A DNA stretch of 64,000 nt from Telopea speciosissima (Eukaryota > Streptophyta > Magnoliopsida > Proteales > Proteaceae), in the NCBI RefSeq assembly GCF_018873765.1, contig NW_025317532.1, positions 1-64,000 on the forward strand. Reading direction: 5' to 3'. Positions 1-64,000 of the stretch are shown here, one piece after another (within the stretch, counting starts at the first letter, position 1; each line of letters opens with the position of its first letter). Below the pieces are notes generated by a model. It was not told the DNA's origin. It saw only the letters and a list, made by a program, of their open reading frames with translations, and searched no databases. Made by a program: the position numbers and the translations under genes.

Positions 1-39
1 TTTATAAATAAAGAGAATGAAGAAGTAGAAGAAGAATAC

Positions 40-59
40 CTGAGCTGCTCTTCCTCCAT
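40..59 (-). CDS. First coding exon of an unrecognised minus-strand gene, left copy (partial)
   Basis: On the minus strand an ATG opens the short peptide MEEEQLR and is followed directly by a GT donor. The identical exon lies at 58024-58043, where further exons follow. Here the rest of the gene would run off the left edge of the window. Seen directly: ATG plus donor. Inferred: that this is a real first exon, because the downstream exons of the right copy join to it in frame. Confidence 0.4.
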
Positions 60-162
60 GCTGTCTACATGTTTATCCCCAGTGCAGCGGCCTTCCTCGT
101 CTTTTTTATCAAAAAAACAAAAAAAAAGCCTTCCTCGTCTTATTGTGGTGAAGCCTGAAATT

Positions 163-318
163 GGAAAATTATCGCCCCCAGTCTGGGGCGGTCAAGTTCG
201 CATCATGAGGTTGGGGCACCGCCCATGTGTGCATAGTGGGCCCCACCGTGCACAGATGGGTGGTGTCCAACCGCACGATGGCACTTGACCGCCCCCAGTA
301 CTGAGGCAATAAAGATCC
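163..318. mobile_element. Foldback Mutator-type MITE, left copy
   Basis: A 156-bp element that is almost one long imperfect hairpin. The left end starts GGAAAATTATCGCCCC and the inverse of the right end starts GGATCTTTATTGCCTC; the arms pair through most of the element. It is flanked by a perfect 9-bp direct repeat, CCTGAAATT, at 154-162 and 319-327, the target-site length of Mutator-like elements. It has no coding capacity; the open frames on both strands are mirror images created by the palindrome. Confidence 0.85.
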
Positions 319-862
319 CCTGAAATTTGCCATAAAATTGATCTTGCGAGTGAGAAACATTCAAAACTCAGAATATACCTAGGAGAAGCTTCGTTCTAAC
401 AACTAGGACAGAGCTTCATTTGAAGCTTGATGGCAGAGCGATGGAGGTTGGAGCTTGATGGTAGATCTGAGAGCGATGGAGGTTCGATCCCTGTCGCTTT
501 TTTCGTGAGAGCTAGATAGGTTGGAGCTTGAGAGTATTGAGAGTGGTTAGGTCGAGGCAACATTTGAGAGTTTTATTAGGCACATTTTTAGCATCTAATA
601 CTTCCAATATTCTCCTGTTTGGAATGCCATTTGGTTATCTCAAGATTTTTTAGCTTAATTGAGCTTATTCTCTTTTGATAGCTGCCCCATTGAGATTGAA
701 TATAGATGCAGTTATCCTCTTTGAATTGCAATGATGTAAAATCATTTATTTTAGCACCATTCTATTTATAAACTATGGAATAAATGTATTGGATTAACTA
801 AACGTTTTATACTTCATTCTAATATTGTATTCTTCTATTTTTTCAAATAATGATTTTTGTAG

Positions 863-1490
863 GTTCCTGTGTTGGACGGCGGAAACCCAAAAGAGGTTTT
901 CGCAATTTTGATTGCACTCAAGGCAACGAAACTGGTGTTGTTGTATCCGATTCATCTAGTAAGTACAGAGATCCATATGTTGTATGCGGATACGATTCTG
1001 GATGTGGTGTTGGATGTGTTTGGTTTGATATGTGGTGGAGTGGCCAAGCTAGCGAAGATCCGTATTATAGATCCTATTAGTTGTTTAGTGGTAAGTGTTT
1101 TTATAATTTTTAAATCTGCATTTCTTTAATACTAATAACAACTTTTTTTAATACTAATAATGGCTATTTTTTTTATGACAGAGTATTGGAATCGCCTTGA
1201 TTAAGTACTTTGAGGTGTTGAAGCAGTTTGCATCGCAAGAAATTGCATCAGAGGCACTGGTACGCTTGATAAGCCTTCAATGCATGGCTAATCTTGGCGT
1301 CCGAAGAACGGACAATATACAATATTTTCGTTTTGGGTTGATTAAAGTTGTGAATCTCAACATTTACTTTGACGGTGATATTTCGCTAGCTGTTGCAAAA
1401 GAAAGGTGTCGATTGATTCAGTACAGATTGGAGATGATGGAGGGTATCGACCGGGTTCTCTTCGATATCATAACTGAACAAGATAGATAG
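863..1490 (+). CDS. Metal tolerance protein-like gene (CDF family), exons 3-4, left copy (partial)
   Basis: Two exons, 863-1090 and 1182-1490 (stop included), joined by a GT-AG intron of about 90 bases. They encode the C-terminal half of a cation diffusion facilitator: a TM4-TM5 region with the motif DTILD, an IDP motif before TM6, then a cytoplasmic domain with the family's FG and late DI positions. The right copy at 58846-59473 has the same exons joined in phase to N-terminal exons. Here the N-terminal exons would lie left of base 1, so this copy is cut by the window. Both exons are open. It could be a complete second gene or a 3' fragment; the window cannot tell. Confidence 0.65.
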
Positions 1491-2075
1491 ATTTAGAAAT
1501 AGATACCGAAATGACTTGTGGGTTTTTTTGTAAAACACAAATTATACGTGTTTTGGTATCTTATCGGTATTAAATACCGGTCAATACCGTTATGCATCAT
1601 TGATACCTTGAATTTTGCTACCACAACCATCGACGTCGAAGGACCGTCAATATATTTTTTTGCAGGATTCTGCCTAATATTCTTTCTTCTCCAAAGCCTA
1701 TGAAGCTGACGGCTCAACGCCTCAACGCCTCAACCCTCAAAGGCGAAACCAAACAAATAGTATTTGCAATAGAAACCTCTCTCAAAGAGGAAGCCACGAA
1801 AGTAGTTAGGATGAATCAAGTATTTTTACTTCGGTTTCAAAAACAAAAAAAATTTATTCCATTTCAACGGCTCTTACATGTAATCAGTGGAACAAACCCA
1901 ATCCATTCAGTAGAATCTTTTTCACTTTCATCAAAATACAGTGGCCAAGTCTTATATAATAATAAGACCAATAAAAAGCTGTATAGGTTGTAACGTCTCT
2001 TGTCAACCATCTCTTCTACATTCTGTTCACCTTAAAATTAGGGATAGGTTGTGTAATTTCATGTTGGACTTTTAG

Positions 2076-2116
<41 letters not shown>

Positions 2117-2575
2117 ATAAGACTTTTAAGGGATTCAAATTGTATACAATGTGAGTATATTGGTATATGAAAAACTTGTCCTTCCTTATATGCAAAATTT
2201 CCAATATTCCTTTTAACCAAAAAAAAAAAAAAAAAAAAACCAAAAAAAACAATCCCCAGTTCTTACCTCCCAGACTTTTGCAACTCATATTATATACTCA
2301 TCACTAAATCTGGTTTATTTATCAAATTGATCCAACGGTAACAATTTTTTTGGATAGACAAGCCCAAGGAAAGTCGAATGCATGACCTTTTAAATCGTAA
2401 GGTATTAGCCAACAGAACCGTCACAACTTACGAACAAATAAACTTTACCATGTCTCCAATGGGCAGCGGTAAAAAAGTACGGTGTTAGGGCCCCTCTACC
2501 ATATCTATAGAAATAGAATAGCCCATTTATGCTCAGAAGTATAGCGCCCCAGCCTCGATCCTGCATCGTGTCATC
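1491..2575. other. Non-coding stretch with (AT)n and A-run microsatellites
   Basis: No gene is visible. An (AT)n run lies at about 2079-2112, 17 units against 12 in the right copy. A long A-run starts near 2219 and is shortened in the right copy. Short open frames here have no recognisable domain. Confidence 0.7.
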
Positions 2576-3184
2576 ATGGATACTAGGCTTGCTTTTGGGG
2601 ATTGCACGAAGAAAACCATTGATACCAGCCTAACCCGAGCTTTCTTTAGTCATTGGGGTATATCTGTTCCATTTTCACTTCCACAGGGTTCCTATCACTT
2701 TTGGACGCCACCTCCCTTGTCGGGTTGCGATTAATTGTGATGGTTCAGTGCGGCAAGGAAGAGGAGGTTATGGGGCACTTGGGGAGATCACTTGGGAAGG
2801 CCTTTATTTGCGATTGTTGGTGGGTGTTGTGATGTGAATACTGTGCACATGGAGTTACAGGCCATTAGATGTGGTCTTGTCAACGCAAGGATTCTCAACC
2901 TATATCGAGTTCAAGTAAGGCTTGACTCAAAGGTTGCAATCCAGATGACTGTTGGGACATTTCGGATCACTTGGGATGTTAGATGGCTAGTGGAGGAAAT
3001 TTGGGAGTTGCGTGATTCATTTGCAAGTCGTGTTTTTGCTCATCATGTTCGTGAAACCAACAATTGTGTGGATTTCTTGGCGAATTTGTTGCACTCCTCA
3101 CAGGAGGATGATCTTTGTATTGACTCCTCCCCACAACACTTTCTGGTTTCTTGCAGAATGATGCTATGGGGAAGAAGTACTTAA
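2576..3184 (+). pseudogene. LINE-derived RNase H domain fragment, frameshifted
   Basis: This is the C-terminal RNase H (RVT_3 type) of a plant L1-like LINE. The right copy at 60529-61140 is open for 203 residues, with the INCDGS motif that holds the first catalytic Asp, ELQAI with the Glu, RLDSK with the second Asp, and a closing C-V-D-F-L-A segment. In this left copy small changes near 2710-2725 and near 2785 break the frame, so only the last 130 residues stay open. No reverse transcriptase sequence precedes it. Expression as a host gene is not suggested by anything seen. Confidence 0.7.
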
Positions 3185-3745
3185 GACTGCAACTCTTTAT
3201 AGTAATTTTTAATATATAAGCTCCCTTATAACCAAAAAGAATAGCCCATTTATACACAATGGTAAAAGGGGCCCCTATGATCGATGATCATAGAGATCAA
3301 TAGAAAAATGAAGGGATATTTTGATCCCTACCAACTTGATCTTGTTGCCCCCGACAACAAGCATGCATGAACTATTTCATGAAGCATGTGTCCTGATAAC
3401 CCAAAGTCTCGATAATTAACTCTCGGTCTTGCGGTCAAAAAATAACATCGATGAAGACTCGTAGGTGCACTATTACGCAGTGGGGATTGTAATTTTCCAT
3501 GAATTTCCCATTTGTCACTCAACGACGCAACTTTGCTTATTTCTTTTTTTGAAGATCGACGAATCAAACAATATTTCTATTTCAATTTATGCCTATAGGA
3601 ATGCATTAGGATTTTGTTCAAAGATCACAGCCACACACAAAGATGGTGTTGGGTTTGAGGGGTTGATGGTCACATGTTAAAGGACCCAAGGTATGAGGCC
3701 TTTAGTGTTCAAGCGACAAGGCCTGTTAGACGGAGACATCCAACT

Positions 3746-4198
3746 GGAATTTTTATCCTCTCAAGTGCAGTGCAGTGTCCAGTGCACCACATTTGAGCAT
3801 CGACGAGCCGAGAGGATGAACTTTAAAGGTGCCTTGCTCGGTGCATCGTCGGATGCACGAGTGATAGGAGTATGATGTCTTTTTTAAAGACTATATGGGT
3901 ATTTCAGTAAATTTCTTATATAAGGTTTTACTATAAATTTGTAGCGAGAGTTCTTTCTCTGTAACAATAGGAATCTGAGAGAGGTGCGAGGACGAGCGAA
4001 TCTAACCATATTCTCCATTGATAGTGAAACAGATTTCATCTCACAATGGACATAGGCAACCTTGTCGAACCACGTAAATCTTGTGTTTATTGTGTGATTG
4101 TTGTTGTGATTTCCATTAATTTCTGCATCATATTAAGTTTTCTATAGTGAAATGCACTGGGCAATGCACCTCAAGGTGCACTTGAGAAGATAAAGATC
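3746..4198. mobile_element. Mutator-type non-autonomous element with LTR-like interior, left copy
   Basis: Terminal inverted repeats begin GGAATTTTTATCCTCTCAAG on the left and, read inversely, GATCTTTATCTTCTCAAG on the right. A perfect 9-bp target duplication, CATCCAACT, lies at 3737-3745 and 4199-4207. The interior looks like a small solo LTR rather than transposase. The ends resemble those of the MITEs at 163-318 and 21977-22169, so all appear to be one family. Confidence 0.75.
3873..4130 (+). repeat. Putative solo LTR of Copia type inside the Mutator-type element
   Basis: The segment starts TGATG and ends CATCA, a short inverted repeat typical of LTR ends. Near 4045-4080 it carries a motif common in plant Copia LTR U5 regions (GACATAGGCAACCTTGTCG followed by a CCACGTAAATC run). 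No clear 5-bp target duplication was found, so the exact ends are uncertain. The right counterpart is about 61832-62089. Confidence 0.45.
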
Positions 4199-7100
4199 CA
4201 TCCAACTGTCCATTTGAAATCAAACTATAACACTATTTTTTTCAATTATTCTATTGGCGCTGCCAAAGTGAATAAAAAGAGAAGTGTTAACACGAAGAAC
4301 ACTGAACACCGAATTTGAAAGAGAAACAAAAGAAAGAACGAGAAAGCATAACAAGCCAATCTAGTACTTCTTTATTCCTCACATCATATGAGGATATCAT
4401 AGAGCGAGTCGTCTTTTGTGGAGAACGTCATCCCATATCTAGCCTTCCAACCATATTAGTTCGGTCCATCAATAAGCTATGGTGGATCTGGTCGTGCATT
4501 TTCAAGTACCAGTGATCTCTATCTTAGGTTGGATTACCTAGATTATGATGAAGATGACCATTTTTTTTAAATTTTTTTGTGTGGTAAGGATAACGATGAC
4601 AATTGACACCTATAGGGTTGTTGTGTTGGACTTCAAACATTTCTTTAGGTTAGGTTTGGTTGTCTAGAGATGGATAGAAAAGAAAAAAGTAGCTCATGGG
4701 TCTTTCTCTCAAGCAAGAGATCTCTACTTGGTTGCATGGTCTCTATACAAAACCAATGGAGAATTTGTTTCAGAAATAGTCTTTGTCCAATTTTCCCGAA
4801 AGGTACTCAAAGTCGAGTGAAACGTAACAACACGAGATGACTCTGCTTGCAACTCAATAACAACCCATGGACGTCCGTCTCAAAAACAGTGGCAATTGAC
4901 TATGACAGACACAACATGGATTTCCGTCATTGTGTCTGTGGACATAGAATTTACGGTACGGATGATCGCTGTAATAAATTACAGGCACATTTGTGAGCCT
5001 TTACAGAAATGGTCATATCTCCGTTTGACCTGATTCTAGTGGCATTAGAAAGTAGACTCGATGATCTACATTTCATATGCAAATAACTTTAAGTCATATT
5101 CAGCGTACAATTCTCAAAAATTATCCTGAACATGACTGATGTGCATAATGATCTCAACAACATACCATGCTTAAAGATTATGCTATAACTCTCTACTCCA
5201 TTAGTAGCTGAACCTCATTCAAATTTTCTTGTAAAGCCAACTCATAAATTAAGGTCAAGTTCTTTGTCCCTCTATACCCTTTCTTCAATGCTTCGTATCT
5301 CTGCTGTTGTTACATATCAATGAGTATGAGGTTGTGAATAGAAAAATCGATTTGTAACAATTCTTCCATTGATCTCCTTGTTCATTATATTTGATAATAA
5401 ATGCATGATTTGATATTATGGTTCAAATATTAATTATCTTCTCCTTACAATTAATGATATATAATAATATGATTTGTAACAATGATTTATCTATTAATTT
5501 TAATATTAGTTATTTTCCGTTACAATTTATTCCTCTTTGTTCGGATTATAACTTGAACACATCAAATCAATTTTGTTATCCATGATCATTTACTTGTTTG
5601 ACTTCGAAAGAGCGAGGACAATTGACATTGCGAGAGATCGCCGCGTGTCATCCACTTCATCACTCTTTGGGAGGAAGAAAGAGAGATAGAGATGAGATGA
5701 ATGTTGGAGTCATCACCTAAATGAAGGTCTAGGACCCAGAGTGTAATGTAATGACTCATGCAACGCCTTTGGGAACTGATGGTTCGTTGGTCTAAGTACA
5801 GGTCAAGTTATGGTTCAGAAGAGGAATTAGGCACCCTAGTCTACCCAATCAAGTGGGTCTTCCTATTACTTGGCTGGGTAGAGTTACAACATGTGTGAGG
5901 GCAAAATCGAACCAAGAGTACCGACCGATACACAAATCGAAAATCGACCTGAACAAAACTATTAAAAAATATCATTAAGTATGAGGTTATGAATAAAGAA
6001 ATTGATTTGTATCAATGCTTCCATTGATCATCTTGTTCACTAAACAATTTGTTCGACAATTAAATGAATGATGTGATAGTAGTTCATTTTATGATTTCAA
6101 CATTAGTTATCTTCTCACTTATTAGTTATCCATTGATTTCAATATTCATTCTCTTCCCCTTGCAGTGATAAAAAATGATTTTTCAACAATCTCAATCTAT
6201 CCATGGATTTCAGTGTCATTATTGTTATCTTCTACTTACCATTTATTCCTCTATGTTCCGATTGCAATATAAACACATCAAATCAATTTTCTTGTTTCAG
6301 GTTGTTTACTTGTTTGACATTGGGAATATGATCTAAAGTATTTTTACTAAATCTTTCCTCACTATAGGTTATGAATATAATTTTTTTTGTGATTCAAACA
6401 AACTGATCTAAACCAATATTAACCCTATACTAAAAAATTGAAATAAATTGAAAATTGAAGTTCCGTAACAGTTTGGTTTTAATCTCACTCAATCAAGAAT
6501 GAAAACGATTCAACTCGATCGAAAACAAACCAAACCGACTATTTGACACCCTTATAACTAGTACAGTTGGCTATGTTTCACACCATTGAATGGACACTTA
6601 TAATCTCAGTTAGATAATATACATACCTTTTGGCGGAAACGGGATTTTATACAACCTCTTAGGCGGAAAAGATGAAATTTTCTATTGTGGAATGCAAACA
6701 TTATCATCTCTAGGACGAGTAAAAGTGATTTTTCGAGGGAGAGATGCAGAGAGAACGGGAGAGGGGAGCTAAAAAGAGAACCAGAAAGAGTGGGGTAAAG
6801 AGAAAGGGGTTGGGAGGCAGAAAGATTTATAGAGACCGGAGAGTGAGTGAGAACAAAGCAGGGAGAGAGAAAAGAGTGAGCGCACTTAGGAGGGAAAGAG
6901 AAAAAGGTACGGGGAGAGAGAGAGAGAGAGATCTTTTCCTATGTTGATGCCTCTGCTCAAGAGAAGAAAGGGTCATCGATGCGTCTTTCTTCCTGCCGAA
7001 AATGCCTAAAAAGCCGTCCTCCAATAGGTAAACTAGCAGTGGGCTAACTCTGTTGTATTTTATTTGTTATAAAATAATTTTTTTAAAATTTTAAAAACAA

Positions 7101-21049: not shown

Positions 21050-21079
21050 TGGAGAAAAAAATTATTGTCCTATAACCGT

Positions 21080-21094
21080 GCTAGGCTGACACCA
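21080..21094 (-). other. Primer-binding site of the Copia element
   Basis: Minus-strand TGGTGTCAGCCTAGC lies directly inside the 5' LTR. It resembles the TGGTATCAGAGC complement of initiator tRNA-Met used by plant Copia elements, with several changes. Confidence 0.75.
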
Positions 21095-47572: not shown

Positions 47573-47880
47573 CCGTGGGACTGATAAACCCCAGTCTCCA
47601 CGGGTCCCTTCGATAAAAAAGGCTCAGTAGTAATGTTATGTTGCCCAGCTTCCATGACTTCAACTGTTGGCCCATCGTTGATGCTCTCGACAGCCAGTTT
47701 CCTTCCAAGACGAGCCTTTTTAACCTTCCGAACAGCTCTGGTTGAATCTGATATATATAGGGAATGTCTACCTTTAGAAGTTTGGGGTGGGGCACGCTGG
47801 GTGCGATAAAGTTGGGTAGGAGTAGAGTTATGGGAAGGTTGCGGGGAAGGTATAGTGTATGGTATCTGTGGAACATTTGG
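47573..47880 (-). pseudogene. L1 ORF1 C-terminal part
   Basis: Minus-strand frame with a proline- and threonine-rich stretch and then basic sequence (RKVKKARLGRK) ending in a stop next to the ORF2 ATG. This position and composition match the ORF1 tail of plant L1 elements. It is cut at about 47880, where Copia sequence begins. Confidence 0.55.
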
Positions 47881-47884
47881 AACA

Positions 47885-50663
47885 TTTGGACTCTAGGTCA
47901 CCCTGGTTCATCCATTTTATCTTCTTTGAAACATTTGGACTCTAATATTAATTTTCATAAGGATTGTTCATGTATTGTTTGCCCTATGGCAAAACAAACA
48001 CGCTTACCATTTCCAAATAACTCTATTTCAACTACATCTATTTTTGATATGATACATCTTGACGTTTGGGGACCGTATAGAACTCCAACCTTATTCGGGG
48101 CACGTTATTTTCTAACCATTGTGGATGATTTTTCTAGAACAACTTGGGTTTATCTTATGCAGCACAAAGCTGAAGTTCCTTTGTTGATCCAATCTTTTTT
48201 TTCAATGGTTGCAACACAATTTGGCATCCAAATTAAAATCTTTCGGTCCGATCAAGGCACATAATTTTTAAACCACCCTACATTTCAACATCTACAAACC
48301 TTAGGGGTTCTCCACCAATACAGTTATGTTGGCACACCACAGCAAAATAGTGTGGCGGAACGCAAGCACCGCCACCTTCTCAATGTGGCTCGTGCTTTGC
48401 GCTTCCAAGCCCATTTACCCATTAAATTTTGGGGTGACTGCATCCTAACAGCCACCTATTTAATTAACCGTTTACCCACCTCTGTTTTACAAGGAAAAAC
48501 CCCATATGAATTACTTTTTGGTAAACGGCCTTTTTTTTCCAACCTAAGGGTTTTTGGGTGCCTATGCTTCGCAAGAAACACTTCACCTGCTCATAAGTTT
48601 GATAAACGTGCCTCCCCGGGAGTTTTTATCGGTTACCCATTCGGGCAAAAGGGGTATCGTGTCTATGATCTTCAAATAGAAAAAATCATAATTTCTCGGG
48701 ATGTCACATTTCATGAACATGTATTTCCTTTTGAAAAAATTTCAGATTCCACCGAGCAATCGGTGCGCCCTCTTCTACCCATTGGTAATGAGGAGGATGA
48801 GGCTCTAGCTCCATTAACCAACGAGCTACCTGTCCCACCTCCCATTGCGCCTTCTAGTCCACCATCACCACCACCCACCACCGACCCTTCACCACCTCCT
48901 GCTCCACCACCACCCCCAACCGTACCACCACTTGCACCAACAAATCCTAGACCGCAGCGGATTAGACTCAAGCCCAAACACCTCAATGATTATCAATGCT
49001 CGTTTACACACTCGCAATTGCCGTCTTCAACAACAGTCCAAGGTACCTCTCATCCACTTCATCCTTACTTACAATACAATCGTTTTTCCACAAAACATAT
49101 TGCTTTCCTTTCCTCTTTGATTAGTACCACAGAACCTGTTACATTTACAGAGGCAATGAAATACCTGCAGTGGAGCAATGCAATGAAGGCAGAAATTTTG
49201 GCTCTCTTTGAAAATCAGACATGGTCCCTAGTCCCATTACCGCCTGGCAAGAAACCCATTGGATCAAAATGGGTGTACAAAATCAAACGGCGTTCTGATG
49301 GTTCAATCGAACGCTACAAGGCTCGCTTAGTGGCTAAGGGTTACAATCAAGTGGAAGGTATTGATTACATCGATACCTTTGTACCTGTCGCAAAACTAGT
49401 AACAGTTCGCACCCTCATTGCCTTAGCAGCTGTGAAAAGATGGGTCCTTCACCAAATGGACGTTCATAATGCATTTCTACATGGGGATCTCAACGAAGAT
49501 GTCTATATGACACCCCCGGGCTATCGTCGAAAGGGGGAGACCCTTGTTTGCAAGCTCCAAAAATCTCTATATGGCTTGAAACAAGCGTCTCGACAATGGT
49601 TCTCCAAATTTTCAACGGCTCTACTCACATTTGGATTCTCCTAATCAAAGGCAGACAATTCCTTATTTATTTTGAACCAAGACACCAAAAGTGTCTACAT
49701 TGTGCTCTACGTAGACGACATTATCATCACTGGCACAGATAGCACCTTGATCGACACAGTGAAAAACTTTCTCTTCAACAATTTTCACATCAAGGACCTT
49801 GGCCAGTTAAAATTCTTCTTGGGCATTGAAGTTGCCAGAGCACACCAAGGGATTTACCTCTCACAGCGGAAATATGCCTTAGACATCCTTCAAGACAGTG
49901 GTTTCACTGGAACTCGGCCAGCTGACACCCCTATGGAGCTCAACTTGCGTCTCACTGATTCCCAAGGAGAGCTCCTCACTGAACCTGCTTCTTATCGCAG
50001 GCTTGTTGGGCGATTAATATATCTCACAGTAACGAGACCAGATATCACTCACACTATCAATATTCTAAGCCAGTTCATGCATGCTCCTCGGCAACCCCAT
50101 TTAGATGCCGCGCACAGGTTACTGCGGTTCTTGAAAGCCACCCCAAGCCAGGGAATTTTTTTCTCAGCCAATACCGAGCTCAATATTAGTGGTTACTGTG
50201 ACTCGGACTGGGCAACTTGCCCCATGACCCGGTGATCCATGACGGGCTACTACATATTTCTTGGATCTGGCCCAATCTCTTGGAAGACCAAGAAACAAAC
50301 CACTGTCTCACATAGTTCGGCGGAAGCAGAATATAGGGCCATGGCTGCTGCAACCTGCGAACTCACCTGGATATCCTATCTACTACATGATTTGGGCATT
50401 GTTCCTACCTCACCAATCCCATTATACTGTGACAATTAGGCGGCCATTCACATCGCCTCGAATCCCGTTTTTCATGAACGTACGAAGCATATCGAGATTG
50501 ATTGCCATGTTATTCGTGACAAACTCCAACAAGGCTTTCTCCGTCCGGCAAAGATTGCAAGCTCCGCCCAAATTGCCGATCTCTTTACCAAATCACTTGG
50601 CCGGGAACAATTCAACGGTCTTGCTTCCAAGTTGGGCATTTGTAACCTACACGCTCCAACTTG
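47885..50663 (+). pseudogene. Copia polyprotein fragment (integrase, RT, RNase H) with four nonsense codons
   Basis: All parts are in one reading frame with no frameshift. Motifs: TLGHPGSS, CPMAKQTRLPF, DVWGPYRTP, a proline-rich linker (about 48835-48950), FLHGD, YVDD at about 49708, CDSDWA and SSAEAEYRA. The frame is closed by four stops: TAA 48262-48264 (in place of Glu in the DQGTE motif), TAA 49642-49644, TGA 50233-50235 and TAG 50437-50439. The last three each differ from the expected codon by one C-to-T change. The natural stop is the TGA overlapping the polypurine tract. Confidence 0.9.
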
Positions 50664-50671
50664 AGGGGGAG

Positions 50672-50925
50672 TATTACCGTATGAATCTTCATAATCTGCT
50701 GAGTAGGATGATTGATTGTATATTCATTGTATAGCTTGATTCTAGGCTTGGGATAGTTGAGAATAACTTGATCTTAGGAATCATGTTGATTGTATATTAT
50801 TGTATAGCTTGATCCTAGGACTATGTTGGGTATTTGAATTTTGTATCTCTTGTATATATGGATGCCTCCATATCAATAGAAGGTAACCATTTCCATTCAA
50901 ATCCTTGTCTTTAGTATTTCCATAT
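50672..50925 (+). repeat. 3' LTR-like segment of the second Copia
   Basis: Starts TATTACCGTATGAATC directly after the polypurine tract, comparable to the TCTTACCAT start of the other Copia. It contains a repeated TTGTATATTnATTGTATAGC block. No partner LTR exists, so the end is approximate. Confidence 0.6.
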
Positions 50926-51574: not shown

Positions 51575-51865
51575 ACACTGACAGCTCGATCAGTGACTGT
51601 GCACAGATTTTATGCAGCACACGTTTACACAAAAACACCAATTTCAAATTTTATTTTGCTTTGAAATTTTTCTGTTTTTTTCTTTTTCTTTTTCTCCCGC
51701 TAACCTTTAAATACCCTAAACTATAATTTGAATTCCTATAATTTGAATTCGTTGAAGTGAGATTTCCATATCTGTCTCCCGCTCGTTCTCTCCGTCGTCT
51801 CTTTCTCCTCTCTGCTCTTTCTCTCCCGCTCCTTCTCTCCTTCATCTCCTTCTCCTCCTGAAGTC
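51575..51865 (+). promoter_or_regulatory. Upstream and CT-rich leader of the MTP-like gene
   Basis: 51774-51860 is a CT-rich leader of the kind common in plant 5' UTRs. Before it, ATAATTTGAATTC occurs twice in tandem near 51722-51750. No certain TATA box was fixed. The L1 5' end lies just upstream at about 51530. Confidence 0.4.
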
Positions 51866-54800
51866 ATGGTTTCTCCGGCACGTTCTGCGGCTGGTGAAGA
51901 AAGTAGAGAAGCTTATCGTTCTTTTCAATTGTACGATGCTGATCCTGATCCAGGCCTGGACTATAATCCTCTCTCTCCTCCACCTCGTGCTCCTCCTGCT
52001 CCTGGTGTGTTGGGGATCTTCATATCCTTCGTAACATCAATGATCTGCGGTAAGAACGATGTATTTTAAATGTTTCCTCTTTATTTTTGCTAATTCGGGA
52101 ATCTAAAATAAAATTTTTTTTTTTTTCTCCAGGACGAGGCACTGATGACCTCTTGTACAACCAGAGGGCCGATCAGATCCAATCTTTGACTGAAGAAGAG
52201 AGAGAGGTTGAGTTGCTGAGTCGTAAGGATGAAATACTCGCAAAAAAAAAATTAAAATATTCAGCTTTGTTAATGAACGTGATAGTCATGGTGGGAGAGA
52301 TTATTGGAGGGCTTCAAATCAGATCATTGGCTGTGCTGGCCTCTACCGCTCTGTCGATCCTCACTGTTCATCCTCTCTTGATGGTGATGCTCAGTGAGAG
52401 GAGTGGTACTGTGGGAGCATATCTTATATTCATGGGCGTTATTGTAGTTATTCCTGTTTTGGTCATCTACATATCATTCTTCGTCGCCCTGAAGGCTGTT
52501 GGAGTAATACTGGGACAGGTACAGAGCAATTAGTCCTGTTTGAACTTTGAATAAGCTTTATTTTTCCTCTGTCTTCCACTAGTCTCAATTGGTTCATTTT
52601 CTCTTATAATTATACTCATGATTCTGCTATAAATGTTGTACTTTAGATATGTGGTCACAATGCAATTCGATAAAGTATTCTTGTACTTTAGATAATAAGG
52701 TTTGCTATTGTCTTTTGAGGATTAAGATTTATAGATAAACCTTTTTCATTCCTAAAATATAAACACAATGAATGGGAAATGACTCATAAAGGTATCTTTC
52801 TTCTCTTCCTTTTGAGGACCTATACTGACAAACTTTGCAGTTTTTCTGAATTTCCTCACTTTTCTTATTATCTCGAAAGGATCAGCATCTCCAGTTACAG
52901 ACACTGTGCTTTTGGAAGTGTCAAGGACGATAGAATTTATGCAATTAACTTCATCACCTTCTTCTTGCACTTTGAACATAACAGTTCCACTGACACTATT
53001 GTTTTCTGCAAAAGTTTCACTGAGGACATTCATCACTGCTATCGGGTTGAATCTCGGCAGTCTTAGAACCTCCACTATTAGCAAAATATGATGGTCCATT
53101 ATTCATCTTCTCCATTTGAGTGTAGCAGCTCACTATATGCTGATCCAATTCATAGTAGTAAACCATCTTCTCCAAGGGTTTCATATCCAGATCAATGAAA
53201 TACACCTTGTATTCAAAGCTTTGGTTTGTAGACTCCAGGCATACATGTGGGGACCCTGGATCCCCATTTTCCCTCGGTCTAAAGCTGATCATTAGACTAC
53301 AATCCTTTGCAGTTGTAGCCATCAAATAATCCCGCACAATCTTCAGGCTTTCTTCCAATGAAATAGAATGCAGAGATAAACATATGCGTGAGAATTCGTC
53401 GTCACCCAAATCTCTACATACCTTGCAAGGTTGAGAAACAATGTTGTAGTATGCATGTATAGCCCCTTCTATGTCAAGCAGATCAAGCTTCTGTGCTTCC
53501 GAAAGCCGGTCCAACACTCCTGATCTGAAAATTGTCTCTGATACAAGCTGTAGAAAACTTGCTGTACGCAAACCATTGTCCACCTGAATAAGACCCTCAC
53601 TCGAATCTTCAAGTGCCTCACTACCCACGAAATTAGTATTGTCAGTGCCACCTCCCAATCCCCCAAAAATCAGAGAACCATTTCGGAATATGCGAAAATT
53701 GTTCTGTGGTGTGACAAACAGAGCCTTGATAGCCTTATGTATTCTTTCACTGGATCCAGAGAACAGATCTAGTGGATCATACTCACTAATCTGTGAAATC
53801 TGAGATACAATTTGAAACAAGTCTCTCCTTGATGAAGCTTCAGGACTTGGTGCATTCTGAAACGAGTTATACTCCTTTTAATAGCATTTCCTTCAGCTAT
53901 GAATCTTGAACATGGAATAAATCCACATTTGGGCTTTATTTCAACTGATATGCAAGGACTCTCTTTAAGAGCACCTCAGGGTTATCCTTCTTTGGACATA
54001 ATTAAAGTTAAATAATTTGATAATAGAGAGAAATATCAAACCCGAATCACCTCATAAGAGCACGATTAGAGGAACAAAAACAAAAAAAATAAACAAGTAG
54101 GCCTACAGACAATAAAAATGAAAGGAAAATTTGTTCTCGAGTCCTGGTGGAATCGAACCACCATCCCATGGGTGTAATCCCACGTGCTCTTCCGTTTGAG
54201 CTAAAGACTCACCTATTTTAATGATTGAGACAACAACCATTTTGGAAAATCCATTTCTTCATTGAAAATTGTGTTCAAGCTATTGTTTTCCCTTTTTCTT
54301 CATTCAAATCAGTACTAATTGTGGTGTTCAGATTGACAAAAGGGTTCAAGTTATTGATTTCTCTTTTTCTAGTGTAGGTGTGTATTAAGTAATTACAAGG
54401 GAGTGGGTACCTTTGACTCCTGTTTAGGTTTGCCTCTCACTTACTTTTATTAAATAAATATGCATATGCCTCATTAATTTTATTTACCAAGATGATAATG
54501 ATTCAGTGTGAAGTGGGAGCAGAGTACACAATGTTCTTCAAATGTCATGCGTGACACAACCCTCCCAGTTAAGGGTCACAACTATAACAGAACCATTTGG
54601 AGCAACATGGTAACAACAATATCCAAAAGCTGCACTTCAATATTTCAGACACTAAACATTAATAGTAGAAATACTAATGTAACTCATTAGAGCACACCAA
54701 CACTTACTCCAAGGACACACTCCAAGGACAACACACCAACACTATCTAGTAGAACGGAAAAAACATACGCTGAAGATGGCAAACAAGCTAATAGAAGGGG

Positions 54801-57800
54801 GGATTCCGGTGTCTCAAATCATTCTTCCTCTGACTCGGATTCTGCTCTGGAGCCACTCGATGAAAGGTTTCACATTCTTTCAGATATGTGACTTCGTACT
54901 GCCTCCAGCCAAGCCTTCCTGATACCACTGCACTATAGTTTCTTCCTCCAGAACATCGCTGCCGTACAGTGCCTTGAGAGCCAAGGCCAACACTTTCACA
55001 ACTTCAGGGCTAGACTTTCCACAGAAATCCTCAATTGCCCACAGCAGAAACATTTGCGATCCTGCACCTGTGGCAGCAGCAAGGTAACTCTTCTTCTTGG
55101 CCACCTCTTTGCCAAATCCTTTCCCAACACCTTCAAACAGGGCCTCAAACAGAGCATTCATGACCTCTTGGGGTGTGCCAGACAGGGAGCCTAATCTGGA
55201 CTGCAGCTGGCTCACAGTGCATCCTTTCTTCAGACTCACTCTGATCTCCTCAACAAGCCTCTCTTGGGTACTCCCAACAGTTGTCCCATTCTCATTTCCT
55301 TTGTGCCCAGCTTTTGCTTCTGATTCTGGCGTGCCATTCTTGCTAGCAACTTCTGTTTTCTTTGCTATTGGGTTTGTCCCTCACTCAACTATCAAAGATC
55401 CACTTTATCTGACTCCTCTATAGGTTTGTTTCTCACTAACATTGTGACCATGACTCTCCAGCAGCATGCTATATTGGAGATTCCCTAATTGACTCGATTA
55501 CTAAAGAAAATAATGAAAATAAAACCCCCAAGTGTGAATGCTACCTCCTCCATTGCCCAATTTTTTTATTTTTTTTTTGTGAAGGGGCATTTATTCAGAG
55601 GGAAAGAAGAAGATTAGGCATTAGCACAAACTGGCAGAAAGTAATATGGTCATAGCAGATACAATTTAGTCATAACCCACACTTTAGCCGCAAGACATGA
55701 GGAGGTTCATGCTTTAATAGAATAGCAATATGTCACAAACCAAAATCCCCAATAGCAAAATATTATATTCGCAAGGAGACATACTACTTATAAACAAGAA
55801 ACTTTATGAAGCTCTTAAGCATAAAAAATGGTAGATTATAAGGAACAGGTCAATACCAGAGAATGCTTAGTACAAAGCTGAAAACATACAGTGGATAAAA
55901 CCAAAATATCTGCAAGGGAAACACCAAAACAAAATACTCAGAGTCAACTGGATTATTTATGACAAATAAATATGAATGGAATCCACAAAGAAATAAAGAC
56001 TAGTAATACAGCACAAACTAGACTTTAAGCAGATGATGCCAGAACAAGCTATAAGAAGGAAATAAGAAGACGGTCTCAGAGAAAATAACTAGGAGAAAAG
56101 ACAATAAAAATAACAGCAGATAAAATGTATCAAATATCTACATCAGGAAAGAGGCCAATGATATAACTTAGGCTCACTGCACGTGACTTTTAGCCAAAAC
56201 ATATGATAAATCATAAGTAGACTTTAGCATCTAATGGGATGAGATGTTCAATCTGGTAGCAAAGGCTTGTAGATTCAACAATGAATCTCCACATACCACC
56301 ACTGAGGTTGGGGGACCGATAATGGAAATAAAAGAGAAGCGAATCCAAAATATGCATAAAATATTATAGACAATACTTCACTCTGAAGTCTTAATGTCAT
56401 AACTGCTAGGTGGGTACAGCGGTACTCAACGGTAAAAATATTAGAAATGCATAATCATCAATTATTGTACCAATCTCCAGACAGGATATGGAAGTTAACC
56501 AATAAGACACATAAAGGTACAACACAATAATACAGGCCCATGTCTGGGGTAAACATATAAAAGACATCTATAAGGAAATCAATTGCAAAAGAAAAAGCTT
56601 AATTATATAGATAATCTGCATACTCACATAGGAAAGCTGAATAAGTCCCGAGCGTAAGATGGAATAAAGTTTTACTACACCAGCAAAGGAACATTGATCG
56701 TCTGAACCAAAATTTGGGCATCGATTTGGTATCCATCCTAGAGTTGGAATGACAACTGAATTTATAACAAACATGCTGCAATAGTGAAAAGATTCATAAA
56801 TTTTAAAATATGTGTCCAAGCTGAAATGAGATATTTTGACATGCAAGAAATTCTACACATCAACCGGATACTGGTCCAAGAATATAAACAAGCTTCTCAC
56901 TAGGGGGAATTGGGAAATAAAAAAAATAAAAAAATTTGAATAAAAGCAAAACAGAAACTATAGAGAAGGTACATAGAAGTAAAGTAGTAAAGTGGGCTGT
57001 TCAGCTCATTTACATTGTGCAAGTTAAAAAAGACAAAATGGATCCATAGAGGAAATACAACGAAAAGTTTAAGCAAAATCTGCTAGACGCCCCAGCTGTT
57101 GACCACTGGAATTTGAACTACAATTTTAAGACTCAGAGCCCAATTTTGAGCCACCTGGATGAGCCATAGTTAATCCAACTACTATAAAAATTGGACATTG
57201 AGGATTCTTGTCCAATTATTTTGGGTAAAGTATTATGCCAAGCAAACAACGCAACACATTTCCCATCCTTACCCTAGACTTGAATTGGCAGTCAAAGTTG
57301 CAGGGAAGTGGTCCAAAGAGAATGCACTAAAATTCTTTGCACCCAACTGTGAAGATTATTTGAGTCAACTTAGAATTGGTTAAACTGTGTTGGAATAATT
57401 TGTAGGACCCTTCAAACCAAGTGCACTGAAAATGCGTTCCCAAAATCTAGTCCTAACAATGGAATGCAGATCTTCCTTAGACAGAAAGAACTCAAGTCAG
57501 TAATAAAGAATATTCTGAAGGGAATTACAATGTAAAACACAAACTTGTGACAGTGTCAACCCAATAACAAGGAGAAAAGAGTAAAAGAAAACCGCTGGAA
57601 CTGAAAAGATGCAAAATTGAAAAACCAACAGAGAGAGCGAGTAGATTACCTTCCTAAGAAAATCAAGCCATTCAATAGAAAACACTGCCCGATTCGGATC
57701 AGGAGCATCCTCGACCTGTGAAAAGAAAAGTTTTGACCATAATTGTTAATATAATTAAAAAAAAAGAATTAGAATTAGAAAGTAGAGGTAAAAGGGTGAA

Positions 57801-59473
57801 CCTGAAACAGAGGAAGACGACCCTGTGAAGACAACATGCCTCCCTGAAACCATCAATCCTCTGTAACACGGCTTGCTTGACCTGTGGTCTCAGAGAATCC
57901 ATCTTCAGTGCCATAATTGTTTACAAGAGAGAGAGCATACCTGCCAGGGGAGTTGAACCTCAGGGCTACTAAGGGAAAAACGAATTTATAAATAAAGAGA
58001 ATGAAGAAGTAGAAGAAGAATACCTGAGCTGCTCTTCCTCCATGCTGTCTACATGTTTATCCCCAGTGCAGCGGCCTTCCTCGTCTTTTTTATCAAAAAA
58101 ACAAAAAAAAGCCTTCCTCGTCTTATTGTGGTGAAGCCTGAAATTGGAAAATTATCGCCCCCAGTCTGGGGCGGTCAAGTTCGCATCATGAGGTTGGGGC
58201 ACCGCCCATGTGTGCATAGTGGGCCCCACCGTGCACAGATGGGTGGTGTCCAACCGCACGATGGCACTTGACCGCCCCCAGTACTGAGGCAATAAAGATC
58301 CCCTGAAATTTGCCATAAAATTGATCTTGCGAGTGAGAAACATTCAAAACTCAGAATATACCTAGGAGAAGCTTCGTTCTAACAACTAGGACAGAGCTTC
58401 ATTTGAAGCTTGATGGCAGAGCGATGGAGGTTGGAGCTTGATGGTAGATCTGAGAGCGATGGAGGTTCGATCCCTGTCGCTTTTTTCGTGAGAGCTAGAT
58501 AGGTTGGAGCTTGAGAGTATTGAGAGTGGTTAGGTCGAGGCAACATTTGAGAGTTTTATTAGGCACATTTTTAGCATCTAATACTTCCAATATTCTCCTG
58601 TTTGGAATGCCATTTGGTTATCTCAAGATTTTTTAGCTTAATTGAGCTTATTCTCTTTTGATAGCTGCCCCATTGAGATTGAATATAGATGCAGTTATCC
58701 TCTTTGAATTGCAATGATGTAAAATCATTTATTTTAGCACCATTCTATTTATAAACTATGGAATAAATGTATTGGATTAACTAAACGTTTTATACTTCAT
58801 TCTAATATTGTATTCTTCTATTTTTTCAAATAATGATTTTTGTAGGTTCCTGTGTTGGACGGCGGAAACCCAAAAGAGGTTTTCGCAATTTTGATTGCAC
58901 TCAAGGCAACGAAACTGGTGTTGTTGTATCCGATTCATCTAGTAAGTACAGAGATCCATATGTTGTATGCGGATACGATTCTGGATGTGGTGTTGGATGT
59001 GTTTGGTTTGATATGTGGTGGAGTGGCCAAGCTAGCGAAGATCCGTATTATAGATCCTATTAGTTGTTTAGTGGTAAGTGTTTTTATAATTTTTAAATCT
59101 GCATTTCTTTAATACTAATAACAACTTTTTTTAATACTAATAATGGCTATTTTTTTTATGACAGAGTATTGGAATCGCCTTGATTAAGTACTTTGAGGTG
59201 TTGAAGCAGTTTGCATCGCAAGAAATTGCATCAGAGGCACTGGTACGCTTGATAAGCCTTCAATGCATGGCTAATCTTGGCGTCCGAAGAACGGACAATA
59301 TACAATATTTTCGTTTTGGGTTGATTAAAGTTGTGAATCTCAACATTTACTTTGACGGTGATATTTCGCTAGCTGTTGCAAAAGAAAGGTGTCGATTGAT
59401 TCAGTACAGATTGGAGATGATGGAGGGTATCGACCGGGTTCTCTTCGATATCATAACTGAACAAGATAGATAG
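51866..59473 (+). CDS. Metal tolerance protein-like (Mn-CDF family) with a degenerate metal site
   Basis: Four exons with GT-AG borders: 51866-52049, 52133-52518, 58846-59073, 59165-59473, giving 368 codons (plant MTPs have about 400). N-terminal proline-rich segment (PPPRAPPAPG), then YNQRADQ, LTEEEREVELLS, TM1, and TM2 with RSLAVLAST. The family motif DSLLD of TM2 reads LSILT here, so both Asp are lost. The TM2-TM3 loop is short. Exon 3 has TM4 and TM5 with DTILD, which keeps both Asp. The C-terminal domain has YFRFG and a late DI. Plant MTPs of this group move Mn into vacuole or Golgi; this one may not transport. The start has a good context (GTCATGG). Intron 2 is 6.3 kb and holds minus-strand gene fragments. 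It could be a non-transporting paralogue or an early pseudogene. Confidence 0.7.
52765..53070 (-). pseudogene. HIPP-like heavy-metal-associated (HMA) domain fragment without CxxC
   Basis: The minus strand encodes TVMFKVQE, then NSIVLDTSKSTVSVTGDADP and EIIRKVRKFRKTAKFVSIGP. These are the first strand and the C-terminal half of an HMA domain as in plant HIPP proteins. The loop with the CxxC metal-binding pair and the first helix are missing, replaced by a short acidic stretch. It directly follows the IPK1 fragment on the same strand, in another frame. Confidence 0.6.
53090..53976 (-). pseudogene. IPK1: Inositol-pentakisphosphate 2-kinase (IPK1) fragment
   Basis: IPK1 makes phytate (InsP6) from InsP5. 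The minus strand encodes the C-terminal two thirds: GALKESPC, VEIKPKCGF, CSRFIAEGN, HQVLKLHQ, then ISQISEYDPLDLFSG, FGGLGGGTDN, DIEGAIHAYY, SQPCKVCRDLG, AATAKDCSLMISFRP-like sequence and FIDLDMKP. The lysine of EIKPK and the Asp pair of the DLDMKP motif are present. A 23-bp segment at 53800-53822 breaks the frame; read on the minus strand it ends TATCTCAG, like the tail of an intron whose start was deleted. The N-terminal third is absent. It lies antisense in intron 2 of the MTP-like gene. Confidence 0.85.
54138..54210 (-). tRNA. tRNA-like sequence, probably a tRNA pseudogene
   Basis: On the minus strand the acceptor stem GAGTCTT/AGGACTC, the D stem GCTC/GAGC and the T arm GGTGG-TTCGATT-CCACC fit a tRNA, and the overall length of about 73 fits. 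The anticodon arm does not: GTGGG and CCCAT enclose only six bases (ATTACA), so no anticodon can be assigned. It could be a decayed nuclear or organelle-derived tRNA. No CCA is encoded. Confidence 0.5.
54838..55375 (-). pseudogene. eIF5 C-terminal (W2 domain) pseudogene
   Basis: eIF5 is the GTPase activator of eIF2 in translation start-site selection. The minus strand matches its C-terminal third: a KAGHKGNENG linker, TQERLVEEIR, LQSRLGSLSGTPQEVMNALF, GKEVAKKKSYLAA, IEDFCGKSSPEVVKV, LEEETIVQWYQEGL. The frame stops at TGA (54880-54882) where the family has Trp. Beyond it KPFIEWLQS is readable and then a 2-base loss shifts the acidic end out of frame. A stop also lies near 55361. The N-terminal GTPase-activating part is missing. 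Confidence 0.85.
55376..56627. other. Part of MTP-like intron 2, nothing recognised
   Basis: AT-rich non-coding DNA with no recognised repeat or domain on either strand. Confidence 0.5.
56628..56775 (-). CDS. Possible internal exon of the unrecognised minus-strand gene
   Basis: Minus strand: a TATTGCAG acceptor, 49 open codons (with IPTLGWIPNRCPNFGSDD and GVVKLYSILRSG), then a GTGAGT donor. The composition is that of a real exon. It cannot be joined in phase directly to the exon ending at 57650, so an exon between may be missing or unseen. Family not recognised. Confidence 0.4.
57650..58043 (-). CDS. First four exons of an unrecognised plant gene
   Basis: Minus-strand exons 58043-58024, 57968-57941, 57843-57802 and 57715-57650 have GT-AG borders and join in frame to 52 residues. 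They begin MEEEQLSSPEVQLPWQ, continue GGMLSSQGRLPLFQ, and end VEDAPDPNRAVFSIEWLDF plus three residues before a GTAATC donor. The first exon is in the duplicated segment, so it also exists at 40-59. Alternatively an ATG at 57914 opens a longer frame through the third exon, which I consider less likely. I do not recognise the family. It is antisense inside intron 2 of the MTP-like gene and its 3' exons are unclear, so it may be a gene fragment. Confidence 0.45.
58146..58301. mobile_element. Foldback Mutator-type MITE, right copy
   Basis: Counterpart of 163-318 with the same CCTGAAATT target duplication. It lies in intron 2 of the MTP-like gene, about 100 bp upstream of the start of the minus-strand gene at 58043. 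Confidence 0.85.
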
Positions 59474-60053
59474 ATTTAGAAATAGATACCGAAATGACTT
59501 GTGGGTTTTTTTGTAAAACACAAATTATACGTGTTTTGGTATCTTATCGGTATTAAATACCGGTCAATACCGTTATGCATCATTGATACCTTGAATTTTG
59601 CTACCACAACCATCGACGTCGAAGGACCGTCAATATATTTTTTTGCAGGATTCTGCCTAATATTCTTTCTTCTCCAAAGCCTATGAAGCTGACGGCTCAA
59701 CGCCTCAACCCTCAAAGGCGAAACCAAACAAATAGTATTTGCAATAGAAACCTCTCTCAAAGAGGAAGCCACGAAAGTAGTTAGGATGAATCAAGTATTT
59801 TTACTTCGGTTTCAAAAACAAAAAAAATTTATTCCATTTCAACGGCTCTTACATGTAATCAGTGGAACAAACCCAATCCATTCAGTAGAATCTTTTTCAC
59901 TTTCATCAAAATACAGTGGCCAAGTCTTATATAATAATAAGACCAATAAAAAGCTGTATAGGTTGTAACGTCTCTTGTCAACCATCTCTTCTACATTCTG
60001 TTCACCTTAAAATTAGGGATAGGTTGTGTAATTTCATGTTGGACTTTTAGGGG

Positions 60054-60077
60054 ATATATATATATATATATATATAT
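60054..60077. repeat. (AT)n microsatellite, right copy
   Basis: Twelve AT units against seventeen in the left copy at 2079-2112. Confidence 0.85.
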
Positions 60078-60528
60078 TTTGATAAGACTTTTAAGGGATT
60101 CAAATTGTATACAATGTGAGTATATTGGTATATGAAAAACTTGTCCTTCCTTATATGCAAAATTTCCAATATTCCTTTTAACCAAAAAAAAACCAAAAAA
60201 AACAATCCCCAGTTCTTACCTCCCAGACTTTTGCAACTCATATTATATACTCATCACTAAATCTGGTTTATTTATCAAATTGATCCAACGGTAACAATTT
60301 TTTTGGATAGACAAGCCCAAGGAAAGTCGAATGCATGACCTTTTAAATCGTAAGGTATTAGCCAACAGAACCGTCACAACTTACGAACAAATAAACTTTA
60401 CCATGTCTCCAATGGGCAGCGGTAAAAAAGTATGGTGTTAGGGCCCCTCTACCATATCTATAGAAATAGAATAGCCCATTTATGCTCAGAAGTATAGCGC
60501 CCCAGCCTCGATCCTGCATCGTGTCATC

Positions 60529-61140
60529 ATGGATACTAGGCTTGCTTTTGGGGATTGCACGAAGAAAACCATTGATACCAGCCTAACCCGAGCTTTCTTT
60601 AGTCATTGGGGTATATCTGTTCCATTTTCACTTCCACAGGGTTCCTATCACTTTTGGACGCCACCTCCTTGTGACTGGGTTGCGATTAATTGTGATGGTT
60701 CAGTGCGGCAAGGAAGAGGAGGTTATGGGGCACTTGGTCGAGATCACTTGGGAAGGCCTTTATTTGCGATTGTTGGTGGGTGTTGTGATGTGAATACTGT
60801 GCACATGGAGTTACAGGCCATTAGATGTGGTCTTGTCAACGCAAGGATTCTCAACCTATATCGAGTTCAAGTAAGGCTTGACTCAAAGGTTGCAATCCAG
60901 ATGACTGTTGGGACATTTCGGATCACTTGGGATGTTAGATGGCTAGTGGAGGAAATTTGGGAGTTGCGTGATTCATTTGCAAGTCGTGTTTTTGCTCATC
61001 ATGTTCGTGAAACCAACAATTGTGTGGATTTCTTGGCGAATTTGTTGCACTCCTCACAGGAGGATGATCTTTGTATTGACTCCTCCCCACAACACTTTCT
61101 GGTTTCTTGCAGAATGATGCTATGGGGAAGAAGTACTTAA
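60529..61140 (+). pseudogene. LINE-derived RNase H domain, open frame (203 codons)
   Basis: Open counterpart of 2576-3184. It starts MDTRLAFGDCTKK and has the WVAINCDGSVRQGRGG motif, ELQAIRCG, RLDSKVAIQ and the closing NNCVDFLANLL segment of a LINE-type RNase H (RVT_3). It is a relic of an L1 ORF2 whose upstream domains are absent. Because the frame is open it could be predicted as a gene, but nothing seen suggests host function. Confidence 0.65.
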
Positions 61141-61702
61141 GACTGCAACTCTTTATAGTAATTTTTAATATATAAGCTCCCTTATAACCAAAAAGAATAG
61201 CCCATTTATACACAATGGTAGAGGGGCCCCTATGATCGATGATCATAGAGATCAATAGAAAAATGAAGGGATATTTTGATCCCTACCAACTTGATCTTGT
61301 TGCCCCCGACAACAAGCATGCATGAACTATTTCATGAAGCATGTGTCCTGATAACCCAAAGTCTCGATAATTAACTCTCGGTCTTGCGGTCAAAAAATAA
61401 CATCGATGAAGACTCGTAGGTGCACTATTACGCAGTGGGGATTGTAATTTTCCATGAATTTCCCATTTGTCACTCAACGACGCAACTTTGCTTATTTCTT
61501 TTTTTGAAGATCGACGAATCAAACAATATTTCTATTTCAATTTATGCCTATAGGAATGCATTAGGATTTTGTTCAAAGATCACAGCCACACACACAAAGA
61601 TGGTGTTGGGTTTGAGGGGTTGATGGTCACATGTTAAAGGACCCAAGGTATGAGGCCTTTAGTGTTCAAGCGACAAGGCCTGTTAGACGGAGACATCCAA
61701 CT

Positions 61703-62158
61703 GGAATTTTTATCCTCTCAAGTGCAGTGCAGTGTCCAGTGCACCACATTTGAGCATCTGACTGAGACTGAGAGGATGAACTTTAAAGGTGCACTGCTCA
61801 GTGCATCGTCGGATGCACGAGTGATAGGAGTATGATGTCTTTTTTAAAGACTATATGGGTATTTCAGTAAATTTCTTATATAAGGTTTTACTATAAATTT
61901 GTAGCGAGAGTTCTTTCTCTGTAACAATAGGAATCTGAGAGAGGTGCGAGGACGAGCGAATCTAACCATATTCTCCATTGATAGTGAAACAGATTTCATC
62001 TCACAATGGACATAGGCAACCTTGTCGAACCACGTAAATCTTGTGTTTATTGTGTGATTGTTGTTGTGATTTCCATTAATTTCTGCATCATGTTAAGTTT
62101 TCTATAGTGAAATGCACTGGGCAATGCACCTCAAGGTGCACTTGAGAAGATAAAGATC
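61703..62158. mobile_element. Mutator-type element with LTR-like interior, right copy
   Basis: Same termini as 3746-4198, with the CATCCAACT duplication at 61694-61702 and 62159-62167. Several bases in the left arm differ from the left copy, near 61760-61800. Confidence 0.75.
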
Positions 62159-62167
62159 CATCCAACT

Positions 62168-64000
62168 GTCCATTTGAAATCAAACTATAACACTATTTTT
62201 TTCAAAGTGAATAAAAAGAGAAGTGTTAACACGAAGAACACTGAACACCGAATTTGAAAGAGAAACAAAAGAAAGAACGAGAAAGCATAACAAGCCAATC
62301 TAGTACTTCTTTATTCCTCACATCATATGAGGATATCATAGAGCGAGTCGTCTTTTGTGGAGAACGTCATCCCATATCTAGCCTTCCAACCATATTAGTT
62401 CGGTCCATCAATAAGCTATGGTGGATCTAGTCGTGCATTTTCAAGTACCAGTGATCTCTATCTTAGGTTGGATTACCTAGATTATGATGAAGATGACCAT
62501 TTTTTTTAAATTTTTTTGTGTGGTAAGGATAACGATGACAATTGACACCTATAGGGTTGTTGTGTTGGACTTCAAACATTTCTTTAGGTTAGGTTTGGTT
62601 GTCTAGAGATGGATAGAAAAGAAAAAAGTAGCTCATGGGTCTTTCTCTCAAGCAAGAGATCTCTACTTGGTTGCATGGTCTCTATACAAAACCAATGGAG
62701 AATTTGTTTCGAAATAGTCTTTGTCCAATTTTCCCGAAAGGTACTCAAAGTCGAGTGAAACGTAACAACACGAGATGACTCTGCTTGCAACTCAATAACA
62801 ACCCATGGACGTCCGTCTCAAAAACAGTGGCAATTGACTATGACAGACACAACATGGATTTCCGTCATTGTGTTCTGTGGACATAGAATTTACTGTGACG
62901 GATGATCGCTGTAATAAATTACAGGCACATTTGTGAGCCTTTACGAGAAATGGTCATATCTCCGTTTGACCCGATTCTAGTGGCATTAGAAAGTAGACTC
63001 GATGATCTACATTTCATATGCAAATAACTTTAAGTCATATTCAGCGTACAATTCTCAAAAATTATCCTGAACATGACTGATGTGCATAATGATCTCAACA
63101 ACATACCATGCTTAAAGATTATGCTATAACTCTCTACTCCATTAGTAGCTGAACCTCATTCAAATTTTCTTGTAAAGCCAACTCATAAATTAAGGTCAAG
63201 TTCTTTGTCCCTCTATACCCTTTCTTCAATGCTTCGTATCTCTGCTGTTGTTACATATCAATGAGTATGAGGTTGTGAATAGAAAAATCGATTTGTAACA
63301 ATTCTTCCATTGATCTCCTTGTTCATTATATTTGATAATAAATGCATGATTTGATATTATGGTTCAAATATTAATTATCTTCTCCTTACAATTAATGATA
63401 TATAATAATATGATTTGTAACAATGATTTATCTATTAATTTTAATATTAGTTATTTTCCGTTACAATTTATTCCTCTTTGTTCGGATTATAACTTGAACA
63501 CATCAAATCAATTTTGTTATCCATGATTATTTACTTGTTTGACTTCGAAAGAGCGAGGACAATTGACATTGCGAGAGATCGCCGCGTGTCATCCACTTCA
63601 TCACTCTTTGGGAGGAAGAAAGAGAGATAGAGATGAGATGAATGTTGGAGTCATCACCTAAATGAAGGTCTAGGACCCAGAGTGTAATGTAATGACTCAT
63701 GCAACGCCTTTGGGAACTGATGGTTCGTTGGTCTAAGTACAGGTCAAGTTATGGTTCAGAAGAGGAATTAGGCACCCTAGTCTACCCAATCAAGTGGGTC
63801 TTCCTATTACTTGGCTGGGTAGAGTTACAACATGTGTGAGGGCAAAATCGAACCAAGAGTACCGACCGATACACAAATCGAAAATCGAGCTGAACAAAAC
63901 TATTAAAAAATATCATTAAGTATGAGGTTATGAATAAAGAAATTGATTTGTATCAATGCTTCCATTGATCATCTTGTTCACTAAACAATTTGTTCGACAA
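62168..64000. other. AT-rich DNA without a recognised gene (right copy)
   Basis: Equivalent to about 4208-6059. No gene, RNA or repeat with clear ends was recognised. Confidence 0.6.

Follow-up and report, generated by a model that had tools for sequence, protein, structure and literature searches.

We analysed a 64,000-nucleotide window of Telopea speciosissima DNA, the whole stretch under study here, which contains on its plus strand a gene of four GT-AG exons joining in phase to 368 open codons. The first-pass annotation had proposed this model, and its coordinates, splice ends, phases and length are all borne out. The gene, and a duplicated stretch that includes part of it, comprise the following features:

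51706..51713, plus strand: TATA-like box TTTAAATA, found by pattern search as a consensus match alone, 160 bp upstream of the start codon
51866..52049, plus strand: exon 1, proline-rich N-terminus with a short hydrophobic stretch at its end
52133..52518, plus strand: exon 2, TM1-TM3 with a degenerate TM2 site, LSILT (residues 135-139)
52519..58845, plus strand: intron 2, 6327 bp, containing minus-strand fragments of other genes
58846..59073, plus strand: exon 3, TM4-TM5 and the start of TM6, with DTILD kept (residues 233-237)
59165..59473, plus strand: exon 4 including the stop, remainder of TM6 and the C-terminal domain, with four of five site-C residues lost
1..6059, no strand: left copy of the duplicated stretch, 98.7% identical to 57985-64000, cut by the window edge
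57985..64000, no strand: right copy of this stretch, truncated at the window edge
863..1090, plus strand: second copy of exon 3, identical
1182..1490, plus strand: second copy of exon 4 with its stop, identical

The introns lie in phases 1, 0 and 0, with donor sequences GCG/GTAAGA, CAG/GTACAG and GTG/GTAAGT for introns 1-3, and a pyrimidine-rich leader follows the TATA-like box. The joined sequence holds no stop in the coding frame, compared with 32 in one alternative frame and 21 in the other, and none of 5000 base shuffles was stop-free (mean 21.8 stops, minimum 8), ruling out a chance open frame. Codon-position composition is uneven (first positions 0.35 G, second positions 0.41 T), as a membrane protein leads one to expect. 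Four coding exons are fewer than expected of the Mn-CDF group MTP8-11, for which one survey gives six exons in Group 9 and seven in Group 8 (PMC3073911). A tobacco survey gives five to seven exons in Mn-CDFs and found no phase-1 first intron among them, unlike the phase-1 first intron seen here.

Intron 2 carries gene fragments between 52755 and 55380 on the minus strand, opposite the host gene: a piece of inositol-pentakisphosphate 2-kinase (IPK1; E=1.6e-61), a piece of an eIF5-type W2 domain (E=5.7e-11) and a sub-threshold HMA domain (E=2.9e-4). These look like captured or inserted gene pieces, and among 18 inverted pairs inspected no transposon ends stand out around them. The same intron holds a minus-strand tRNA gene at 54138-54210 (Rfam 49.3 bits; type unassigned by ARAGORN) and, at 58152-58295, a foldback-like self-complementary stretch (79%) that is also present at 169-312. 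Elsewhere in the window, a 3.3-kb sequence at 9754-15568 is repeated at a spacing of ~2.5 kb with 92% identity, and related retroelements lie at 17478-21333, with 239-bp terminal direct repeats of 96.7%, and at about 47761-50734, ending about 1.1 kb upstream of the gene; an RVT_2 match in the second marks them as Copia-like. Together, the introns, transposons and gene fragments of the window suggest a plant source.

The duplicated stretch, on which the first-pass annotation was silent, takes in exons 3 and 4 with intron 3, which are identical between 863-1490 and the right copy. Its first 2479 bp show 0 substitutions and four indels, and the following 3.58 kb show 13 mismatches, patchily spread, by blastn or 24 by MAFFT, many of the latter adjoining gaps; at an even rate, a substitution-free run of 2479 bp has p=1.2e-4 on the blastn count. 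The duplication is either segmental, with a ~58-kb period, or an assembly duplicate, two cases that look alike here because both copies are cut by the window edges.

Relationship to the CDF family

The predicted protein matches the NCBIfam CDF model TIGR01297 with E=6.4e-6 over residues 101-364 and profile positions 4-282 of 285, scoring 25.7 bits, under the curated cut-off of 82.35. Pfam Cation_efflux gives 8.3 bits, below its cut-off of 26.6, and by itself would miss the family; a phmmer search of the PDB returns a single weak match, SLC30A4 (E=0.014), and an hhalign comparison with five prokaryotic CDFs stays weak (probability 11). As plant Mn-CDF references we used two approximate sequences, recA and recB. 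At the 74 positions for which a published residue of OsMTP8.1 is named, recB agrees in 70, covering all 51 of the null and severe classes combined and 19 of the 23 mild ones. A profile of these two sequences scores the window protein at 34.7 bits, against a best of 10.3 among 2000 shuffles, and the TIGR01297 match owes nothing to them. Together with the register scores given below, these two results exclude a chance likeness to CDFs, and the CDF signatures that had been proposed from N- to C-terminus are recovered by the whole-length model match and the plant profile score.

Identity amounts to 75 of 309 aligned positions with recB and 73 of 308 with recA (about 24%), and to 38-46 of 268-273 with the five prokaryotic CDFs. 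The plant Mn branch, Groups 8 and 9 (MTP8-MTP11), thus appears nearest over the whole length among the sequences compared, two plant Mn-CDFs and five prokaryotic CDFs. The alignment with CDFs is collinear through exons 2-4, exon 1 is largely unaligned with the references, and the protein stops short of the last residues of the reference C-terminus. The window protein does not fit the Montanini signature of TM2-TM3; neither does one of the five prokaryotic CDFs tried (Deinococcus), and recA and recB both do. A layout of six TM segments with a C-terminal domain is suggested by hydropathy stretches only, and a single-sequence fold of exon 4 is poor (pLDDT 46.8). Searches of collections without plant genomes (tblastn of the protein against plasmids, the protein against viral contigs, exon 2 against genome contigs) found no relatives there and are uninformative on plants. 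Judged by its sequence, the window protein is a genuine, if distant, relative of the CDFs along its full length.

Metal sites and scaffold

To describe the metal sites we use the residue numbering of OsMTP8.1. The TM2 DxxxD motif (D135/D139) reads LSILT, placing L and T at the two ligand positions, and the TM5 motif (D244/D248), common to plant Mn-CDFs, is retained as DTILD; alignment to OsMTP8.1 positions thus agrees with the earlier reading of both motifs. Not noted earlier is the state of the C-terminal site, where D324, D340, H353, H375 and D377 correspond to D, N, K, D and I, so that only D324 survives and four of five published residues are lost. The ungapped register is well defined for TM1-TM2, which scores 35 where the next-best register scores 5 and 300 shuffles reach at most 32, and for the C-terminal block, which scores 48 where the next-best register scores -3 and the shuffles reach at most 25. 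Taken by itself, the TM5 block falls within the shuffle range (30, with 32 the highest of 300 shuffles), and its placement rests on collinearity.

According to a mutational study of OsMTP8.1 in yeast (PMC4995437), D135A, D139A, D340A, H353A, H375A and D377A each abolish function, as does single mutation of either TM5 aspartate, D324A reduces it, and Y161, P162 and R167 are each required. The last three correspond to I, F and V in the window protein, and the K117 equivalent is also changed; several of these four positions differ in prokaryotic CDFs too. The D270 equivalent is retained. Loop content between TM2 and TM3 is altered, with KYPIGKLR of the reference replaced by LIFMGVIV, but the shortening ascribed to this loop does not hold: the distance from D139 to G164 is 24 residues against 25 in the reference, one residue fewer, and the real loss lies between TM3 and TM4, where 35 residues stand against 44 (9 fewer). 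Loss of transport ligands within an intact frame is the configuration expected of an auxiliary, ZnT6-like protomer, and it is the one found here.

The hydrophobic pattern has outlasted sequence identity. At non-identical columns relative to recB, hydrophobic residues stay hydrophobic at 74 of 108 positions and others turn hydrophobic at 50 of 126 (odds ratio 3.3, p=1.3e-5), an association absent in all 7 slid registers tried. Among the four references tested, retention is also seen against recA (p=1.4e-4) and one FieF (p=0.0016), and is not significant against Halorubrum (p=0.18). The window protein keeps 10 of 16 columns identical across four CDF groups, the six lost including two C-terminal histidines. 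When conserved columns are defined with one group left out, it keeps 11 of 36, 13 of 27, 12 of 24 and 13 of 25, whereas the left-out group keeps 16 every time, so the scaffold too is relaxed relative to working CDFs. Published loss-of-function positions are kept at 7 of 31 (23%), with no excess over the others (56 of 237, 24%), a result that would fit a lost transport constraint although its controls are weak. The five prokaryotic CDFs keep 12, 12, 7, 10 and 9 of the same 31 positions, with an excess at p<0.05 in only two of the five, both haloarchaeal, and in none once the severe class is added; because these controls vary, we give the test little weight.

The open frame outlived the metal sites

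We compared the change at the metal sites with the time for which a neutral frame stays open. Replacement of the six lost metal codons would take a minimum of 12 base changes in total (D135L 3, D139T 2, D340N 1, H353K 2, H375D 1, D377I 3), and D244, D248 and D324 are kept. Treated as neutral, the nine metal codons give a maximum-likelihood distance of 0.94 substitutions per site (0.44-2.65), or 0.85-1.26 for kappa 1-4; site A or site C alone gives 0.79-1.33, the lower bounds being 0.25-0.44 and the upper ones lying beyond the grid. In whole-gene neutral simulations the frame was still stop-free in 37-50% of runs at t=0.02, in 1.1-3.2% at t=0.1 (1500 runs each; 2.0% in a separate set of 1500), and in 0 of 400 runs each from t=0.2 upward; with an assumed frameshift (indel) rate added, the intact fraction is 0.0033 at t=0.05. 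The change at the metal codons exceeds the neutral drift compatible with an open frame, so the frame outlived the metal sites, and most metal-site change happened while something maintained the frame. The fast change could also be explained as directional; directional change, or an ancestor already without these residues, would weaken the clock and leave this conclusion unaffected.

An open frame despite a lost transport site had been noted at first pass and stands, and had been attributed to either a new role or very recent decay. The second attribution survives in part: at least 12 changes set against the simulations disfavour recent decay alone and favour a period of non-transport function, and use may still have ended for good within roughly the last 0.03 substitutions per site. 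A gene recently dead in this sense, having lost transport while in use and then all use so recently that stops have had too little time to arise, is in our judgement rather unlikely, but it deserves to be weighed. The stop-free runs at t=0.02 allow it, and the transposon-rich surroundings, the 6.3-kb intron with its gene fragments and the early end of the protein relative to the reference C-terminus are in keeping with it, as is a rice precedent: OsMTP11.1, which lacks the TM5 motif and has very low expression, has been considered as a possible pseudogene (PMC5681648). Against it stand the intact frame and splice sites, and recent death by itself cannot account for the divergence of the metal codons.

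Discussion

The explanation to which we lean, with modest confidence, is that the gene is a fast-evolving paralogue of plant Mn-CDFs (MTP8-11 type) that no longer transports metal and has been retained as an intact membrane protein, C-terminal domain included. Most of site C and half of site A, the part in TM2, are lost, and the frame and the hydrophobic pattern persist. On its residues, the protein probably no longer carries manganese; Mn transport would no longer be possible for it, and the selection that maintained the frame would have acted on a non-transport role. By analogy with ZnT6, the partner of ZnT5, the likeliest such role would be that of an auxiliary protomer pairing with a canonical MTP, although a dimer-partner role is a guess. 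A stronger version, in which a Mn-CDF paralogue without membrane and C-terminal metal binding is kept as a dedicated regulatory protomer, which would be the first such partner on the Mn branch among the literature matches listed, seems to us unlikely.

Several known systems bear on this reading. Relative to plant Mn-CDFs, the window protein lacks the TM2 DxxxD, four of the five site-C residues and the TM2-TM3 loop motif. ZnT6 (SLC30A6), a protomer of ZnT5-ZnT6, is likewise a CDF relative without a complete transport site, lacking two zinc ligands (PMC7949119, PMC10932157); it differs in belonging to the Zn branch and in having a partner proven by experiment. The heterodimer precedents in these reports, ZnT5-ZnT6, Msc2-Zrg17 and MTP5-MTP12, are all Zn-CDFs (PMC7949119, PMC10932157), and among the literature matches listed no title names a Mn-CDF heterodimer, which is no proof of absence. 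Yeast Zrg17 combines a partial CDF signature with heterodimer formation with Msc2 (PMC1868760, PMC10932157), but concerns Zn and falls in a distant cluster, restricted to ascomycetes in the survey concerned (PMC1868760). Closer in branch is OsMTP11.1, a Mn-CDF paralogue also reported without half of site A (PMC5681648). It loses the TM5 half and keeps TM2, the reverse of the window protein, and is far less divergent, at 72-78% identity to normal MTP11; its gene model has been questioned (PMC3073911).

The protein could instead still transport, through a rebuilt site or with another substrate, by way of the retained TM5 aspartates. We regard this as very unlikely: the TM5 DxxxD and the D270 equivalent are kept, and in human ZnT10 the first TM2 position is occupied by N (PMC10932157), but neither TM2 ligand is left, the second aspartate of TM2 has been described as essential for CDF/MTP function (PMC5681648), and the K117, Y161, P162 and R167 equivalents are changed, with the proviso on prokaryotic CDFs given above. 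Highly improbable, too, is a wrong gene model, with a canonical exon missed or exons 1-2 and 3-4 drawn from different duplicate copies, for although the nine residues absent from the TM3-TM4 interval fall close to the junction of exons 2 and 3, and the limits of the duplication fall outside the window, exons 2-4 are collinear with CDFs and the losses in TM2 and the C-terminus are internal to exons, away from the joins.

Zinc CDFs are known to include pseudo-transporters in the service of a functional relative. Were the gene a dying one instead, it would be an ordinary relic. A Mn-branch example of such a partner would mean that the same route was taken again, and it would offer a handle on whether plants tune Mn loading through heterodimer formation.
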